From positions 62,001-126,000 of the forward strand of contig NZ_AUGL01000007.1 of assembly GCF_000422645.1 (NCBI RefSeq): a DNA stretch of 64,000 nt, in the 5' to 3' direction. The stretch comes from Ferrimonas futtsuensis DSM 18154 (GTDB lineage: Bacteria > Pseudomonadota > Gammaproteobacteria > Enterobacterales > Shewanellaceae). The notes below the pieces were generated by a model. That model saw only the letters and a program-made list of their open reading frames with translations. It searched no databases and was not told where the DNA came from. This document shows, piece by piece, positions 2,280-9,034 of the stretch (positions within the stretch are counted from its first letter, which is position 1; each line of letters opens with the position of its first letter). A program made the translations under genes and the position numbers.

Positions 2280-2340
2280 CATTGAGCCAACACCGGCTTC
2301 GCGGCCTCTAGCATTTGTACGCCCAACCCCTTAAAATAAA

Positions 2341-2355
2341 TGAGAATCAATTTCA
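2341..2355. promoter_or_regulatory. Fur-box-like palindrome
   Basis: TGAGAATCAATTTCA matches the 7-1-7 Fur core TGATAAT-n-ATTATCA at 11 of 14 positions. It lies 15 bases before the start of the small Cys-rich gene at 2371 and heads the iron-related cluster. Iron regulation is inferred. Confidence 0.6.
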
Positions 2356-2370
2356 GTTGAGTTGTGTGCC

Positions 2371-2724
2371 GTGTCATCATTGAAGAAACTCAAGAAGCTG
2401 GCCAGGGCGGGTAAATTTCAGAAACGCCTCGCCAGGGCCGAACAGCCTCTACGAAGCATTAACCCTGAACTCAGGGCGGTCACCCTGCAAGCAGGGCAAA
2501 GCGCAGTGCGGGAACTGATGGCACCACTCAACCCACTGCTGAGCTGGTTTAACGAGGGAGGCATCGACTTTTCCGCTGCAGACTCCAGCTCCCGTCAGAT
2601 TCAGTCGATACGACAACCGGCCCGTCCCCTGTCCATGCTGCCGCTGAAATCGCCCCCCTGTAAGCGCTGTCCGGCGCTGATGGGGGGACAGTGTAAATGT
2701 GCTGTCAAGAAGTTTGCCAGTTGA
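2371..2724 (+). CDS. Small basic protein with C-terminal Cys cluster, unknown function
   Basis: A 117-residue protein I do not recognise. The N-terminus is strongly basic (repeated K/R in the first 25 residues), the middle is hydrophilic, and the last 25 residues hold CKRC and CKC, four Cys that could bind metal or a cluster. I chose the GTG at 2371, which has GTTGAG at a usable distance; a TTG at 2362 is in frame but has no ribosome site. It is preceded by a Fur-like box and points into a convergent terminator shared with the HMA-like gene on the other strand, so a role in iron handling is plausible but unproven. Confidence 0.6.
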   Translation: MSSLKKLKKLARAGKFQKRLARAEQPLRSINPELRAVTLQAGQSAVRELMAPLNPLLSWFNEGGIDFSAADSSSRQIQSIRQPARPLSMLPLKSPPCKRCPALMGGQCKCAVKKFAS

Positions 2725-2740
2725 CCGAATCTCAGGCACA

Positions 2741-2770
2741 AAAAAAGCGCTCATCGGAGCGCGTTTTTTT
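2741..2770. terminator. Bidirectional terminator
   Basis: Stem GCGCTC/GAGCGC (2747-2752 with 2757-2762) flanked by an A run on the left and a T run on the right, so it serves both convergent genes. Confidence 0.85.
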
Positions 2771-2783
2771 CGTTGTTCTTGAA

Positions 2784-3143
2784 TCAGGCGAAGGCCAAAG
2801 CCTTGATCACCGATGGCCCCATCAGGCGTTTCAGTACCAGAACCGCTACCCCTTTGACGAGGGAACGTGACCCACTGCGCACTGCGTTTTCCACGAAGGC
2901 ATTGCGACTTGCTGAGCGCAGCCAGCCGTGACTCTCCACCGTCTCCAGCAGATCCTCTGCGGTCAGCTCATTGTGATCGAACATCAGGGTCACCGAACCG
3001 GCGTAGCGGCGATGGCGAACCTCCAGCACTGCATCTATCTGCCGCAGTTGCTCCAACAGCGCCTGCACTTCCTCAGGGTTGTTCAGAATAAAGTCTGAGC
3101 GAATCCGCAGGCGACGATCAGTTTTGTGGATATAGGTCGACAT
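2784..3143 (-). CDS. Small HMA-like domain protein of the iron cluster
   Basis: 120 residues from the ATG at 3143. Residues about 5-80 look like a ferredoxin-fold HMA-type domain without the CxxC metal site: a basic strand (RRLRIRSDF) that parallels the GRIRLK strand of the two neighbouring proteins, then two helices and strands (VLEVRHRRYAGSVTLMFD). The C-terminus (about 85-120) is amphipathic to hydrophobic. An in-frame ATG at 3173 would overlap a Fur-like sequence at 3158-3172, so the shorter start is preferred. It is divergent from the HMA/ATPase operon. Role inferred from context: accessory protein of an iron-storage compartment. Confidence 0.72.
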   Translation of the reverse strand: MSTYIHKTDRRLRIRSDFILNNPEEVQALLEQLRQIDAVLEVRHRRYAGSVTLMFDHNELTAEDLLETVESHGWLRSASRNAFVENAVRSGSRSLVKGVAVLVLKRLMGPSVIKALAFA

Positions 3144-3380
3144 CACAACACCATGAATGAGACTGATTTGCATTTAATGTATCTCATCATTCCCTGAAAC
3201 TCAAAGAAAAATCGACTGCCTTGGGGCAATATCACAAAGCCAGTGATGAGATTGATTTTTATTTGCCTTTCGGCTGTGTTTGCAGCAAAACAAGAGGGTC
3301 TTTTTGACCTCGCGCAATTTTCTCTGGATATCCACATGCCAGAATCGAGCCCTTGCCACTAGCGAAAGTGATTGAACATC
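3144..3380. promoter_or_regulatory. Divergent promoter region with weak Fur-like sites
   Basis: This 237-bp AT-richer gap separates the divergent HMA-like genes and must hold both promoters. Two 15-mers, at 3158-3172 and 3247-3261, each match the Fur core at 10 of 14 positions. I see no convincing -35/-10 pair. Confidence 0.4.
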
Positions 3381-3707
3381 ATGCCTAACACGGCCAAAGA
3401 AATAGTAAAGCTCAGGCAGTGGGTCCACGTCGCCCACCACATTCCTGGCCGAATCCGACTCAAGTTCAACTCGGCTCTGGTCACCCAGATGGCCAGATTC
3501 AAAACCGAGCAGATTCTGGAGCAGGCAGATCGCCTGCCGCCACTCAAACGGTTCCAGCTCAATACCGGCTCCAACAGCCTGATCCTGGAGTATGACCACG
3601 GAACCATTCATCCCGGTTTACTGGACAGACTGTTCGGCGAATGCCAGATGGGCGCCGAGCAGGCGTGCCAGGAACTGATCGACCTTTTAGCGCCACACTA
3701 CCAATAA
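3381..3707 (+). CDS. HMA-like domain protein, first gene of ferrosome-like operon
   Basis: 108 residues from the ATG at 3381 (an in-frame TTG lies at 3372). It carries HHIPGRIRLK near residue 20, identical to the stretch near the N-terminus of the ATPase encoded five genes on, followed by a strand-helix-strand pattern ending NSLILEYDHG. This is the HMA_2-like fold lacking the CxxC copper/zinc site, which accompanies P1B-6 ATPases. The operon continues with short gaps and overlaps to 7018. A role as a FezC-like partner of the ATPase is inference from domain and context. Confidence 0.78.
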   Translation: MPNTAKEIVKLRQWVHVAHHIPGRIRLKFNSALVTQMARFKTEQILEQADRLPPLKRFQLNTGSNSLILEYDHGTIHPGLLDRLFGECQMGAEQACQELIDLLAPHYQ

Positions 3708-3720
3708 GGATGGTTGCATC

Positions 3721-4398
3721 ATGAATAACAAAGACGAGCAAAACATGGCTTACCCCCCATACGGTTATCCTCCTGTGTGGCCGCCTCACCCCATGCATGG
3801 CTACCCTCCTCACCCCATGCACGGCTATCATCCCCACGCCATGCCACCACAAGGCTATGGTGTGCCACCTCAGGGGCAGCCGCAGATGCCCCATGGCTAT
3901 CCTCCGCACCACCACAGTATGCCTCCGCACGGCGGCCACCATGATCACCACCACAGCGATCCGCTGATGGCTCAGTCCCAGCAGATGCTGGAGGGGCTGA
4001 TGGGTGACCAGGCGGGTATCTTCAAGGATCTGCTGCACAAGCTGGGTGTGGACGACAAGGAGTTCTGGAAAGGGGCGATGATTGGCGCCGCTGCCGCCCT
4101 GATCCTCAGCAATGAGAATGTGCGCGGTAACCTGATGAGCATGCTGGGCAACGCCGGTGACCTGCTGAAAACCGGTACCGACAAGGTGAAGCAGACTGCC
4201 ACCCAGACCGCCTCGAACGTCGGCAGCAACGTCTCCATGGGCACCGATGTGTTTAAGGACACCCTGGCCGCAGGCAAGGCCGGCTTCAAAGAATCCGTAG
4301 AGCGCCACCGCTCGCCAGAGCCTCAGGCAGCCCCTCAGCAGGAAACCACCCCAGAGGCACCCACAGAGCCTCACATCAAGGCCCAAGCCAATGAGTAA
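3721..4398 (+). CDS. His/Pro-rich protein with glycine-zipper membrane segment
   Basis: 225 residues. Residues 1-80 are extremely rich in Pro, His, Gly, Tyr and Met, with repeated HPMHGY units and HHDHHH, a composition suited to metal binding. Residues about 115-135 form a short hydrophobic segment with the pattern GAAxAxxLSN, also found in the 4686-4958 product. The C-terminal half is a hydrophilic helix with apolipoprotein/YtxH-like repeats, ending Pro/Glu-rich. Start is an ATG 13 bases after the previous gene. Probably a membrane-associated structural or iron-binding protein of the compartment; no characterised homologue is recognised. Confidence 0.75.
   Translation: MNNKDEQNMAYPPYGYPPVWPPHPMHGYPPHPMHGYHPHAMPPQGYGVPPQGQPQMPHGYPPHHHSMPPHGGHHDHHHSDPLMAQSQQMLEGLMGDQAGIFKDLLHKLGVDDKEFWKGAMIGAAAALILSNENVRGNLMSMLGNAGDLLKTGTDKVKQTATQTASNVGSNVSMGTDVFKDTLAAGKAGFKESVERHRSPEPQAAPQQETTPEAPTEPHIKAQANE
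3784..3831 (+). repeat. Two-copy 24-bp in-frame repeat
   Basis: A 24-base unit starting CCTCACCCCATGCA at 3784 recurs at 3808 with few changes, encoding the repeated HPMHGY motif. It looks like a recent in-frame duplication. Confidence 0.75.
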
Positions 4399-4702
4399 CG
4401 GCTCCAGAGAGCTGAGCCCCGCCAGCCGGGCGATGATCGCCAGTGCCTTGCTGGGCGGCACCGCCTCCGCGGCAGGACAGTGGAGTGCTTATCAGCGCGG
4501 TGAGCTGCAGGTCAATGAACTTGCCGCCAAAACGCTGAAAGACGCCGCCAAAGCGGGCATAGCCGGAGGCATGGCCACCGCCGTTGCCGGTCGCATGGCC
4601 GGCCGTCCGCTGTTGTCACTGGCCACGGTGTTGTGCGCCGGCGCCGCCAGCCTCTACCTCATCGATGAATTAACGGACAACTCCAATGAAAAAAGTGCCT
4701 AA
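4391..4702 (+). CDS. Glycine-zipper membrane protein of ferrosome-like operon
   Basis: 103 residues. Its ATG overlaps the end of the previous gene by 8 bases, showing translational coupling. Two hydrophobic segments rich in Gly/Ala, about residues 14-30 and 52-90 (AGIAGGMATAVAG, then LLSLATVLCAGAASLYL), suggest a small protein that packs in a membrane through GxxxG contacts. In fez clusters a small hydrophobic protein of this kind accompanies the ATPase; equating them is inference. Confidence 0.72.
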   Translation: MSNGSRELSPASRAMIASALLGGTASAAGQWSAYQRGELQVNELAAKTLKDAAKAGIAGGMATAVAGRMAGRPLLSLATVLCAGAASLYLIDELTDNSNEKSA

Positions 4703-4958
4703 TCCATACTATCCCTACGGCTACCAGCCACAGCAGCCTTACCAGCAGCAGAATACCCGCACCCACTTCGTCTCGGGCCTGCTGGCCGGTGCCGCCGTGG
4801 CCTATCTGCTGTCCAATAAGAAGGTGCAGCAGGGCGTGGCCTCCGCCGGCAACCGCGCCTGGTCCACAGTGCGTGGCGAAGTGGAGGAGCTCAAGGAGCG
4901 CCTGGAGGACACTCAGGCTGAACTGGAATACTACCGCAACCTGCACAAGGAGCAGTGA
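4686..4958 (+). CDS. YtxH-like small membrane protein of ferrosome-like operon
   Basis: 90 residues, overlapping the previous gene by 17 bases. The N-terminus is Tyr/Pro/Gln-rich. Residues about 28-45 form a membrane segment, GLLAGAAVAYLLSN, sharing GAAxAxxLSN with the His-rich protein upstream, and residues 60-90 are a charged coiled-coil-like helix. The stop codon overlaps the ATPase ATG (TGATG). Likely a membrane anchor or scaffold; function unknown. Confidence 0.72.
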   Translation: MKKVPNPYYPYGYQPQQPYQQQNTRTHFVSGLLAGAAVAYLLSNKKVQQGVASAGNRAWSTVRGEVEELKERLEDTQAELEYYRNLHKEQ

Positions 4959-7018
4959 TGACTCAGTTTGTGGTCAAACACCACATACCTGGACGCATCC
5001 GCCTCAAGATTGAGCTGCTGGCTTCCCTGAAGGGCTGCGGCGACTGGCTGAAAACCGGTCTGCTCTCCCTGCAGGGGGTACACTCTGTCCGCCTGAATGA
5101 ATACGCCCGTTCCCTGGTGATTGAATATGATCACCAGCTGCTGGAGCCGGCGGACATTCAGGGCAGGCTGGAGTCATTGGACTGGCAGGCGGTAGAACAT
5201 GCCGACGGCGAGCACCAATACACCCGCGGCGATATTGCCCTGAACCTGATGGGTTTTCTGGCCGCCGGACTGCTGCCCAAACGCTACGCCTCCCTGAGTA
5301 CCGCGGCGCTGATCACCCCGACCCTGGAGGCCGGGGTGGAGCAGCTTAGGGATCGCACCCTGGGCGTCGAGGTATTGGATGCATTCGCCATCGGCCTCTC
5401 CGCCTGGCGTGGGGACCATAAGACCGCCATGCTCACCCAGACCCTGCTCTCCACCGGCGAGTATATGGAGCAGCTCACCAGTCGCAACAGCGACAAGCTG
5501 CTGGCCGAACTGATGCAGCCCAAGCACACCCAGGTGTGGGTCATCCGTGACGGCCAGGAGATACAGGTCAGCTCCGAAACTCTGGCCGAGGGCGAGCTGG
5601 TGCGCCTGGGCCCAGGCGACATGGTGCCCGCGGACGGCGTGATCACCCAGGGTGAATGTCTGGTCAACCAGGCCTCGCTCACCGGCGAATCGGTACCGGT
5701 GCGCCGGGAGGACAGCGCCTACCTCTACTCAGGCACTGCGATTCACGAGGGCAATGTCACCCTCAAGGTGGAGAAGGTCGGCTGTGATACCACCACAGCA
5801 CGCATCGCCGCCATCATCGCCCAGTCTCTGGGCGAGAAGAGTCAGACTCAGCTGGCGACCCAGGAGATGGCGGAGCGCCGGGTGAAGATCACCCTGGCCA
5901 TCGGCAGTGCCGTGTTCGCCATGACCGGCGATCTGGAGCGGCTGGCTTCGGTGTTCCTGGTGGATTACTCCTGTGCCCTGAAACTGTCCACTCCGGTGGC
6001 CTTCAAGTCGATGATGTACCGCGCCGCCAAGCAGGGCCTGCTGCTCAAGGGTGGCCGGGCCATGGAGAACCTGGCTGAGGTGGATACCGTGGTGTTCGAT
6101 AAGACCGGTACCCTGACCTATGGGGATCTGGAGGTCACCGATGTTATCTGTCTGCGCGAGCAGAAGAACGCCCGGGAACTGCTGGCCATCGCCGCCTCGG
6201 TGGAGGAGCACTGCAACCATCCGCTGGCTCAGGCGGTGGTCAATGCCGCCAAGCATCATGCCCTGCCTCACATCGAGCATGGAGAAGTGGAGTATGTCAT
6301 TGCCCATGGCCTGAAGAGCTCCATCGACGGTCATCCGCTGGTTATCGGCAGTCGCCACTACCTGGAGGCCCACGAGCAGGTGGACTTCGGCTCTTTGGAA
6401 CAGACCATTACCCAGCTTGAGGCCGAGGGCAAACACCTGCTGTTCCTGGCCAGTGGCAACCAGCCCATGGGGGTCATCGGCCTGAGGGACACCCTGAGGG
6501 AAGAGGTACACGACGCCCTCAAGCAGCTGAGAGACAGCGGCATTCGCAACCTGGTGCTGCTCACCGGCGATACGGCGGCAAAAGCACGCCAGGTCACCGA
6601 AGATCTGGGTTTCGATCTCTTCTTCGCCGAAGCCACCCCAGACTCCAAAGCCGATGTGGTCACCAAGCTGCAGCAGCAGGGCCACAAGGTGCTGTTCGTC
6701 GGAGACGGTGTCAACGATGCCCCTGCCCTGTCGGCAGCCGATGTGGGCCTGGCGATGGCCACGGGCACCGACCTGGCTCACCTGGCCGCAGACGTGGTGT
6801 TGATGCAGGACAGCTTGCTGGGCATTGCCCAGGCCAGGGAACTCTCTCAGGAAGCGATGGCGCTGATCGACAGCAATATCCGCCTGGCGGAGGTGGTCAA
6901 CAGCGGCATCATGCTGGCCGCAGCCATGGGCTGGCTGCGTCCCGCCACCAGTGCCCTGCTGCACAACGGCACCACCCTGGCCGTCATCAGCCGGGCCATT
7001 GCCGCCCGCCAGGGATAG
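4958..7018 (+). CDS. fezB: P1B-type (P1B-6-like) metal ATPase, probable ferrosome iron pump
   Basis: 686 residues from the ATG at 4958, with AGGAG five bases upstream inside the overlapping gene. Order: HMA-like domain with HHIPGRIRLK (about 8-17) and no CxxC; short hydrophobic helices about 90-165; actuator with TGES near 242; membrane motif SCA at 338-340 where Cu, Zn and Co pumps have CPC or SPC; DKTGTLT phosphorylation site at D381; HP motif at 421-422; hinge GDGVNDAP near 582; two final helices. The SCA motif and the GRIRLK-type N-terminus fit P1B-6 ATPases, whose known members build iron-filled ferrosomes. Iron as the cargo and the symbol are inferred from family and neighbourhood. Confidence 0.78.
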   Translation: MTQFVVKHHIPGRIRLKIELLASLKGCGDWLKTGLLSLQGVHSVRLNEYARSLVIEYDHQLLEPADIQGRLESLDWQAVEHADGEHQYTRGDIALNLMGFLAAGLLPKRYASLSTAALITPTLEAGVEQLRDRTLGVEVLDAFAIGLSAWRGDHKTAMLTQTLLSTGEYMEQLTSRNSDKLLAELMQPKHTQVWVIRDGQEIQVSSETLAEGELVRLGPGDMVPADGVITQGECLVNQASLTGESVPVRREDSAYLYSGTAIHEGNVTLKVEKVGCDTTTARIAAIIAQSLGEKSQTQLATQEMAERRVKITLAIGSAVFAMTGDLERLASVFLVDYSCALKLSTPVAFKSMMYRAAKQGLLLKGGRAMENLAEVDTVVFDKTGTLTYGDLEVTDVICLREQKNARELLAIAASVEEHCNHPLAQAVVNAAKHHALPHIEHGEVEYVIAHGLKSSIDGHPLVIGSRHYLEAHEQVDFGSLEQTITQLEAEGKHLLFLASGNQPMGVIGLRDTLREEVHDALKQLRDSGIRNLVLLTGDTAAKARQVTEDLGFDLFFAEATPDSKADVVTKLQQQGHKVLFVGDGVNDAPALSAADVGLAMATGTDLAHLAADVVLMQDSLLGIAQARELSQEAMALIDSNIRLAEVVNSGIMLAAAMGWLRPATSALLHNGTTLAVISRAIAARQG

Positions 7019-7064: not shown

Positions 7065-8735
7065 CTATCCCGCTTCCGGCAACCTGAAATGATCGATGGC
7101 GTTTCTCAGTTGACTGGCGGTGGCAGTCAGTTGCTCACTCGCAGCAGCAACCTGCTGAATCTGTTGGGCATTCCCCTCCGAGGCATCACTGACCCGAACC
7201 ACGTTAACGTTGATCTCCTCCACCACCCCACTCTGCTGCTCGGCGGCGCTGGCGATCTGGGTGTTCATCTCGTTCACCTGTTGAATGGCGTCATTCATCT
7301 GCGACATCAGCTCGCTGAAGCGACCGGACAACTCCATGGTGCGCCCGCCGAGATCGCAGCTGCGTTGAATGGTTTGGACCGCCTCATGGGTTCCCGAACG
7401 AAATTGTTCAATCATTGACTCAATCTCTGTGGTGGACTCATGGGTGCGCTGAGCCAGATGACGCACTTCATCGGCCACTACCGCAAACCCCCTGCCCTGT
7501 TCACCGGCCCGCGCCGCCTCGATGGCCGCATTGAGTGCCAGCAGATTGGTCTGCTCGGCGATCCCCTTGATCACCTCCAACACAGTGCCAATGTTGTGGC
7601 TGTTCTCCTCCAGGGCTCCCATCACCGCACCGCTCTGATTCAGGCTCTCCACTAACTGTTCCGTATGCCCCATCGCCTCCAGGTTGGCCTGCTGGCTCTC
7701 CTGAGATCTCTGAGTCGCCTCCCCGGTGGCCGCCTGAGTGGCCGACGCACTGCGTGCCACCTCCTGAGCGCTTGAGGCCATCTCATTCACGGCGGTGGCC
7801 ACCTGGGTCACCTCATCGGTCTGACGACTGACGTTACTTTGTACCTCGCTGCTGGACACAGATAGAGAACCTGCGGCTTGTGCCACTTCCCGGGTGGAGT
7901 GCCTGACACCGATTAACAGTTGGGCCACGGTGTGGCGGGTCCTCTCCATGGCACAGAGCAGCTCGCCAAGCTCTCCGGGCTCATCTTTGGCTACGGGACG
8001 ACTGAAGTCGCCACCGGCGAGATCTCTTAAAGCTGAAAGCCCCTTATCCAAGCCTCGCATTATCGTCCTGGAGAACCACAGCACCATGGCACAGGCGATC
8101 AGCAGAGAGACCAGTGACGCGGATACCGAGATGTACTCCAGGCTGGTGGCCTCCCCCTCAATGCCTGCCAATGCCGACTCGGTCAGTCCGGCCAGTTGAT
8201 GCAGCAACTCCTCCACTTCGTTGGTCAAGGCCTGGGCCTCCTGCTCTATCGACACGGAGAGCAGGTCGGCCTGACTCAGAGCCCCCTGATCCAGGTGGCC
8301 AAACACCTCCTGCACATGCTCCACCCAGCTGCGGTGGTGTGCGCGAAGCTTAACCAGCGAGGCGCCCAGGGCCGCCATCTCGCCAGAACTGCCCTCGAAG
8401 AACCGATGCGCACGGCTGAACTCCCGTTCAATTTCCTCATTCATGACCCAGAAGGCCGCAAGAGAGGATTGGTAGCCCGATACTGCCCCCTCTTCCGAGG
8501 AGAGCGCCAGGGCATAGCGGAACCCCCGCTCAAACATCACCTCCTGCTCCAGCTGCAGCTCGGTGATTCGTGTGGTCGACGCCACCACAGGCATGTTCCT
8601 GTGGGCCACCTCGGCCAGGTGCCCCTCCAGGTTGGTCAGCTTGATGAAGACCGTTGAGGTGGTGAGAAGCTGAATGCCGCAGATCACCACCACCAGCAGC
8701 ACAAGACGTTGACGAATATTCAGGGAATTAACCAT
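7065..8735 (-). CDS. Methyl-accepting chemotaxis protein
   Basis: 556 residues from the ATG at 8735, which has AGGAGG just upstream; the open frame extends further 5' but without a ribosome site. TM1 lies at about 10-32, then a roughly 170-residue periplasmic helical sensor domain, TM2 near 210-228, a HAMP domain, and the cytoplasmic signalling helix with the conserved tip [16 protein letters not shown]. It relays an unidentified ligand signal to CheA/CheW. It stands alone with no che genes nearby. Confidence 0.95.
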
Positions 8736-9034
8736 GGGCGCCCTCCTGCTCGGGGCGGCCCGTCTTGCTTTCTGCGTGACCGAAAGATAGGAAAACAGCA
8801 GCGGGCATCGCCGCCCGCCCTGTGGGGGTGTCTCTGTGCAACATACGCCACATCCTTGTGATTCTCTGCGCCGATAACCTGGCACTCCCGCCAAGTCAAA
8901 AAAAGCCGGAGCGTCAGCCCGGTCCATCAACAAGATTAGCAGAGCTATCAGAAATGCAAGGCGATTTCACAGTTCGCACCGTTCCCGTCTCTGGGATACA
9001 CTGGGCATCCCGATTCGCCAGAAAGCCGGACGCC

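Follow-up and report, generated by a model that had tools for sequence, protein, structure and literature searches.

A candidate ferrosome gene cluster of a distinct subtype with a MamC-related membrane protein in Ferrimonas futtsuensis

The closest described systems to the locus presented here, a block of seven genes (g1–g7) in a 64,000-nucleotide stretch of the Ferrimonas futtsuensis DSM 18154 genome (G000:C5:62001-126000, genome size 4.30 Mb; the whole stretch is called the window), are the fez gene clusters for ferrosomes, i.e., for membrane-bound iron storage. According to the available text of PMC12574912, the Clostridioides difficile locus holds fezA and fezB, and Fur-type iron control has been reported for it. 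The Rhodopseudomonas palustris type consists of six genes (RPA2333-2338), and FezC is described as a DUF4405-like cytochrome in the accessible part of PMC10979944. A review, in the portion available, treats ferrosome granules as independent and separate from magnetosomes (PMC9160268). Judged from sequence comparisons, the block in the window, spanning positions 2371-7018, is very probably a fez cluster of a distinct subtype, from which the cytochrome-like first gene is missing and to which the Cys-motif protein g1 is added. This assignment, already proposed in the sequence-only reading of the stretch, is supported because the ATPase encoded by g7 shares a clade with the ATPases of C. difficile and of the six-gene fez loci and because the gene order parallels that of the six-gene locus in four of six slots.

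Genes g3–g7 (3381-7018) form one tight operon, the neighbors overlapping or lying 13 bases apart, in accordance with the sequence-only reading. Six genes had been counted there in and around the operon. The operon was found with five genes and the count was corrected to seven; g1 and the divergent g2 lie outside the operon. The terminator-like hairpin which follows g1 belongs to a class of sites whose number in the region was not significant (4 observed vs 3.5 expected). The features, in window positions, are:

2336..2354, + strand: Fur-box-like site 5' of g1, 13/19 positions matching the consensus
2371..2724, + strand: g1, 117 amino acids, basic N-terminus, C-terminal Cys motif CKRCPALxGGxCKCA; no Pfam or NCBIfam family
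2747..2762, no strand: two-way terminator-like hairpin between g1 and g2, from the scan for terminator-like sites
2784..3143, - strand: g2, divergent HMA_2-domain protein (Pfam), 119 amino acids, C-terminal hydrophobic segment
3248..3266, - strand: Fur-box-like site in the g2/g3 divergent promoter region, 13/19, reached by 3/60 shuffles
3381..3707, + strand: g3, small HMA_2 protein (Pfam) with HHIPGRIRLK at 3435-3464
3721..4398, + strand: g4, N-terminus rich in His, Pro and Met, conserved DKEFWKGAM-GAAAAL-LSN segment, long tail
4391..4702, + strand: g5, putative MamC-family membrane protein (NCBIfam and profile comparison), 103 amino acids
4686..4958, + strand: g6, 90 amino acids, N-terminus rich in Tyr, Pro and Gln, GAAVAYLLSNKKVQ segment, EELKERLEDTQAE stretch
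4958..7018, + strand: g7, FezB-like P1B ATPase (Pfam, NCBIfam, trees), 686 amino acids, HMA_2 domain at the N-terminus
4979..5008, + strand: HHIPGRIRLK in the N-terminal domain of g7
5963..5983, + strand: DYSCALK, transmembrane metal-site motif of g7, invariant in 10/10 rows of the close-relative alignment
6962..6976, + strand: HNGTT, second g7 motif near the C-terminus, where an SPC pump has HEGST

Class of the g7 ATPase

Work by Grant in 2022 is said to have identified P1B-6 as the class of the ferrosome ATPases. The metal site of g7 reads VDYSCALKLSTP, and the two P1B pumps of the same genome have ACPCAL and TCPCAL at this position. In the alignment to CopA, the g7 residues placed on CPC were Y-S-C, and the SCA that had been noticed in place of CPC or SPC is the same site in a register one residue later. 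The SPC motif marks P1B-4 pumps. Akin to a Natronosalvus SPC pump, which carries HEGST, g7 has HNGTT at the corresponding position, whereas it has Y-S-C for S-P-C and belongs to a different clade.

The position of g7 was evaluated in two trees. Tree 1 comprised 31 rows, with L059, L070, L075, L082, L088 and L155 (named six-gene rows among them) and the non-P1B L003 left out. It placed g7 in a clade of 18 rows (support 100/100, branch 0.88) together with the other ATPases of its type, those of the five-gene loci L051 and L052 and the alpha, delta and Firmicutes relatives, including two C. difficile loci. Outside this clade were the other 13 rows, which carry CPC, SPC or related motifs and include the two P1B pumps of the same genome. 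Tree 2, made with a quicker method, comprised 34 rows, as the six rows omitted earlier and G729 were added and P1B_015, P1B_016, L131 and the second L091 row were removed. The main split was unchanged, with 24 rows inside, a Shimodaira–Hasegawa-like approximate likelihood ratio test (SH-aLRT) value of 100 and a branch of 0.85; the type of the window branched beside L051 and L052 (97), with the six-gene type next to them (99). Both trees were flagged for long branches among the outgroup pumps and for odd residue make-up, with C. difficile among the rows affected. The C. difficile ATPase of the tree is taken here to be FezB, an assumption based on the available text of PMC12574912 and its small membrane-protein neighbor.

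A motif census of 110 fez-type ATPases, one per locus with some genomes entering twice, was binned by bit score. The D[YF][SA]C motif was present in 33/33 ATPases above 900 bits, in 27/28 at about 560-900 bits and in all 41 listed among the 49 others, and an HN motif near the C-terminus was found in 32/33, 28/28 and 47/49 of these groups, respectively. The check named in the sequence-only reading, i.e., whether g7 would fall into a Cu, Zn or Co clade, was performed, and the protein grouped with the C. difficile, deltaproteobacterial and six-gene fez ATPases instead. A Cu/Zn/Co efflux pump as the identity of g7 was rejected based on the clade in both trees and the Y-S-C/HNGTT motifs.

A resistance pump for Cu, Zn, Cd or Co with unusual neighbors would agree with the NCBIfam model ATPase-IB2_Cd, which matched g7 above its cut-off (354.6 vs 313.5), and with the nearest solved structures, which were CopA, a Cd pump and ZntA among the best 60 of 71. 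Since no chain named P1B-6 or iron pump was present among these 60, the nearest solved relative of g7 is of little informative value. The NCBIfam Cu model remained below its cut-off (323 vs 397), both trees and the motifs contradict such a pump, and this explanation is regarded as extremely improbable.

Gene order and small proteins in relation to other fez loci

The comparison with the R. palustris type was made on the locus of Rhodopseudomonas sp. BR0M22 (L088), not on R. palustris itself. Its genes encode, in order, an HMA protein with a cytochrome-like part, an HMA protein, a FezA-like protein, the slot-5 hairpin, g6 and the ATPase. The six-gene order was also found in Rhodoblastus (L082), Azospirillum (L070), Magnetospirillum fulvum (L075) and in the genomes G519, G555 and G729. 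Because L082 and L177 supplied the sequences of the FezA-like model, and L075, L082, L155 and L177 those of the HMA-cytochrome model, these rows match by construction. The corresponding slots are g3, slot 5, g6 and the ATPase, in the same order and with the ATPase as the last gene; g3, g6 and g7 were recognized with models, and slot 5 was assigned by comparing profiles. The first gene of the six-gene type encodes an HMA protein with a DUF4405-like part (weak and below the cut-off in 4/4 tested), whereas the window has an inverted HMA gene, g2, without such a part. Moreover, the FezA slot is occupied in the window by a His-rich protein, slot 5 by a MamC-like protein, and g1 is extra. The identity between the L088 ATPase and g7 was 42% over 645 residues.

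The five-gene loci L051 and L052 have the nearest ATPases outside the subtype, and an HMA_2 protein, a Pro/Tyr-rich g4-like protein and g6 precede the ATPase. They differ from the window in an HMA_2 protein located after the ATPase, where the window has the divergent g2. At the thresholds used, no slot-5 protein and no g1 were detected in these two loci, with a marginal g1 hit (0.04) in L052. The C. difficile fezAB locus shares the ATPase clade with g7, whereas the identity of the ATPases is 33% and one small membrane protein (Pfam DUF6110) precedes the ATPase. None of g1–g6, nor a DUF4405-like FezC, was found in that locus by the models applied here.

All three HMA-like proteins of the block exceeded the Pfam HMA_2 cut-off of 30 (30.4, 37.1 and 43.6 bits), and the HHIPGRIRLK stretch, identical in g3 and g7, is therefore considered a family motif and not a chance likeness. 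Both the shared stretch, with one copy at the N-terminus of the ATPase, and the third, more diverged HMA-like protein had been correctly pointed out from the sequence alone. The His-rich protein described between these genes corresponds to g4, with 16 His in the first 80 residues. The proposed small glycine-zipper proteins were recovered in part, as g6 was weakly YtxH-like in Pfam, below the cut-off, and g4 and g5 had no Pfam match. The sequence-only reading had overlooked the homology of g5 to MamC, the conserved gene g1 with its Cys motif and the status of a separate subtype. Matches of the g4 model extended to Pro/Tyr-rich proteins found in L051 and L052, and weak ones to g6 proteins from further fez loci; g4 occupies the FezA slot and possesses a Gly/Ala-rich segment. 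The g6 model matched in the six-gene fez loci. DUF4405 had no Pfam match among the cluster proteins and two matches elsewhere in the genome.

Strong matches to g1 (E < 1e-30) were present in 10 of 295 genomes of the order, all of them among the 12 genomes with a fez ATPase. Weaker matches occurred in 15 further genomes of the order without a strong g1, in 14 over the C-terminal region. Accordingly, the Cys motif is regarded as a wider small domain. Outside the window, the same genome carries this Cys motif region of the g1 C-terminus once more (G000:C12:105616-105729, E 1.2e-9).

The g5 protein and MamC

In NCBIfam, g5 matched MamC (E 1.1e-8) and no other family up to E 1, and 10/10 g5 orthologues matched MamC with no other family at E 0.01 and nothing in Pfam. 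The profile–profile comparison of 21 g5 with 13 MamC sequences gave 97.7% and a score of 71.7 over 77 ungapped columns of the 103-residue protein. The controls stayed far lower, with at most 19.8 for 100 column-shuffled MamC alignments, 17.9 for the reversed MamC and at most 17.9 for the five other small fez families. Reciprocally, the 21-row g5 model recovered 13/13 MamC at 1.7e-8 or better, and the 10-row model at 1.4e-6 or better. The MamC model run on 398 genomes of the phylum (E 0.001 or better) matched 16 of them, 13 above the curated cut-off and three below. These three are exactly the genomes with a window-type ATPase among the 398, and the five with other fez ATPases were absent from the 16. 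Among 11,927 open reading frames (ORFs) of 89 fez loci, searched up to E 0.5, the same model matched only 15 g5 proteins and one displaced protein of G451, described below.

The homology of g5 to the magnetosome protein MamC (Mms13) by ancestry is thus supported at the sequence level. Convergence of two Gly/Ala-rich helical hairpins would explain that both are small Gly/Ala-rich membrane proteins with low identity over the aligned columns (mean 23.5%, maximum 32.4%). It is nevertheless very unlikely in view of the ungapped profile match and its controls, the reciprocal recovery of all 13 MamC and the 398-genome search, in which the three fez genomes were the only matches besides the 13 above the cut-off.

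The g5 gene was found in 9/295 genomes of the order, all nine among the 12 with a fez ATPase and each about 0.3 kb away from it; the three fez-ATPase genomes without g5 were G451, G519 and G555. As g5 adjoins the fez ATPase in 9/9 cases, it is not part of a magnetosome gene cluster, no search for other mam genes having been made in the F. futtsuensis genome. In the three MamC loci inspected, L160 had MamX and MamZ above the cut-offs and a MamD-like neighbor, and the three tested neighbors of MamC in L159 and L161 were not magnetosome proteins.

Two MamC residues, Glu66 and Asp70, were placed provisionally on the EAAID motif by spacing. The Glu66 position was acidic in 13/13 MamC and 18/29 g5 proteins and the Asp70 position in 13/13 and 3/29, respectively. 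According to the available text of PMC6584501, these residues contact magnetite in MamC. Templating of magnetite by g5 in the manner of MamC was marked down, as the Asp70 equivalent is acidic in just 3/29; g5 probably does not act as such a template, because the iron-contact residues are not kept, and shared mineral control by the two proteins is not supported. By analogy with MamC in the magnetosome membrane, g5 may be an integral protein of the ferrosome membrane with a small structural role. The deletion of mamC caused no defect in crystal size or shape, as stated in the accessible part of PMC3905215, so a strong g5 phenotype should not be assumed.

Slot-5 proteins numbered 18 in the 25 other fez loci examined, and their family matched g5 with a score of 35.3, compared with at most 15.5 in 60 shuffles. 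A slot-5 protein displaced downstream of the ATPase was observed in G451 (L154:5486-5863), with the six other genes in place. It matched three families, slot 5 (6e-9), MamC (9e-6) and g5 (9e-3), with MamC as the only NCBIfam match (1.1e-6). A hairpin-like protein in the slot-5 region of the fez locus of Ca. Albibeggiatoa (L072:5365-5724) matched g5 only marginally (0.03) and did not match MamC.

Two histories of slot 5 were considered. A MamC taken up from a magnetotactic bacterium could have replaced the slot-5 protein in the subtype, which would fit the higher profile score of g5 to MamC than to the six-gene slot 5 (71.7 and 35.3). The G451 protein, with its matches to slot 5, MamC and g5 alike, favors one old family instead, and no genome with both an above-cut-off MamC and a fez ATPase was listed in two 398-genome searches, so that replacement appears doubtful against an older common ancestor of MamC and slot 5. 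A more extended proposal, in which both descend from one ancestor, MamC entered the magnetosome clusters from the ferrosome operon (or the transfer ran in the other direction) and the subtype protein still governs mineral formation or compartment growth, is possible and put forward as tentative.

If true, the shared membrane protein would constitute a gene-level link between ferrosome and magnetosome and would allow a direct test of whether a common component shapes iron-filled vesicles. In the subtype, the MamC-like part is separated from the remaining magnetosome machinery. In the available portions of three of the four papers naming both MamC and the ferrosome, no link was drawn between them; Grant 2022 and Pi 2023 lie outside this comparison, and priority is not claimed.

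Iron control, distribution and neighboring sequences

Putative Fur sites were scanned in 24 loci over the g2/g3 intergenic region, extended by 60 bases into either gene, using an approximate control of 60 shuffles and a 19-position consensus. In 10/24 loci the score of the site was reached by at most 1/60 shuffles, and the best sites (16/19) were those of L025, L026 and L066. The site at 2336 is one of five on the + strand with at least 13 matches in the 64 kb window and is weak alone. Iron-starvation control may well apply to the subtype and is only suggested for this genome.

An alternative is plain Fe(II) efflux, in which g7 exports iron over the inner membrane with the small proteins as accessories and without a compartment. 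An iron-type P1B pump by itself does not prove a vesicle, and a table in the accessible part of PMC7558416 gives Ni(II)/Fe(II) for P1B-5 and Fe(II) for P1B-6. The correspondence of four of the six slots to the six-gene fez type and the conservation of the small membrane proteins in the loci of nine relatives and in 13 named loci (see below) point away from efflux. In addition, the Fur-type sites in 10/24 loci suggest expression at low iron, the opposite of what efflux would need. This alternative is considered quite unlikely.

In the proposed ferrosome system, low iron would relieve Fur repression at the divergent g2/g3 promoters, as indicated by the sites. The g4, g5 and g6 products would be small membrane proteins shaping or lining the vesicle, and g7, with its Y-S-C/HNGTT motifs and its place in the fez clade, would pump Fe(II) from the cytoplasm into it. 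Handling or buffering of iron at the surface of the vesicle may fall to the His-rich part of g4 and to the HMA_2 domains, in which stretches of the HHIPGRIRLK type replace Cys motifs.

Among 60 genomes, including that of the window, a close ATPase (58-98% identity) was found in nine others, seven of which belong to the 13 other Ferrimonas genomes. All nine relatives have g1–g7 in the same order and orientation, with g1 located about 4 kb further off in L022. In the best 80 of 582 named loci, g1–g7 were present in 13/13 with an ATPase part 60-85% identical; these come from Ferrimonas, Shewanella, Vibrio, Photobacterium and one record called Oceanospirillales bacterium. In L058 g1 lies downstream, and g4 and the ATPase are split in the draft L068; L056 and L057 represent the same genomes as L020 and L023 of the nine relatives. 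None of the other 67 loci of these 80 had an ORF with g1, g2 or g5 as the best match at E 0.01. Since the 67 include L069 and L072, presumably from other gammaproteobacterial lineages, the subtype does not represent the class as a whole.

Several results weigh against the assignment of the block to a ferrosome system or against the place given to its proteins. The FezA-like model, built from two sequences, did not match g4, and the HMA-cytochrome model of the six-gene type did not match g2. The g5 protein was below the curated cut-off of the MamC equivalog (35.3 vs 100 bits), and the slot-5 family compared directly with MamC gave no match (14.8 vs at most 19.7 in 60 shuffles). A score of 22.2 was obtained between the g6 family and slot 5, and the slot-5 likeness may therefore be general in part. 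The Fur-like sites of the window, at 3248 and 2336, were just 13/19, and 9/24 loci, with the nearest relative L018 (12/19) among them, had no Fur signal (score reached by at least 16/60 shuffles). The block is patchy in the genus, being present in 7/13 other genomes. Finally, granule formation, localization and iron transport by the block are predictions from sequence only.

The full seven-gene set was also present in L050, L157, L158 and L162, the last one on a record of 1.7 Mb that is designated a plasmid of Vibrio sp. THAF190c (NZ_CP045339.1:138362-152419) and is listed with no gene annotation in the table used. A fez ATPase was found in 10/117 Shewanella genomes, nine of the window's type (in five of these loci, which end early, little beyond g4–g7 is visible) and one, G729, of the six-gene type. 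The G729 locus (L177, 4548-8438) is an R. palustris-type six-gene fez operon, so both fez types occur within one genus. Shewanella putrefaciens was not among the best 80 of the 582 named loci. Strains of Ferrimonas, Shewanella and Photobacterium under culture-collection names should make the subtype easy to study.

A scan of viral contigs with the N-terminal domain of g7 revealed no relative. Downstream of the block, an ORF at 7065-8933 (- strand) resembles a methyl-accepting chemotaxis protein by eye, and among the stretches of the nine relatives it was matched in that of G011 only. At the window edge, a 735-amino-acid ORF (25-2232) had no family in Pfam or NCBIfam; in G011, a near-identical copy was observed and, within that region, another relative that is longer.

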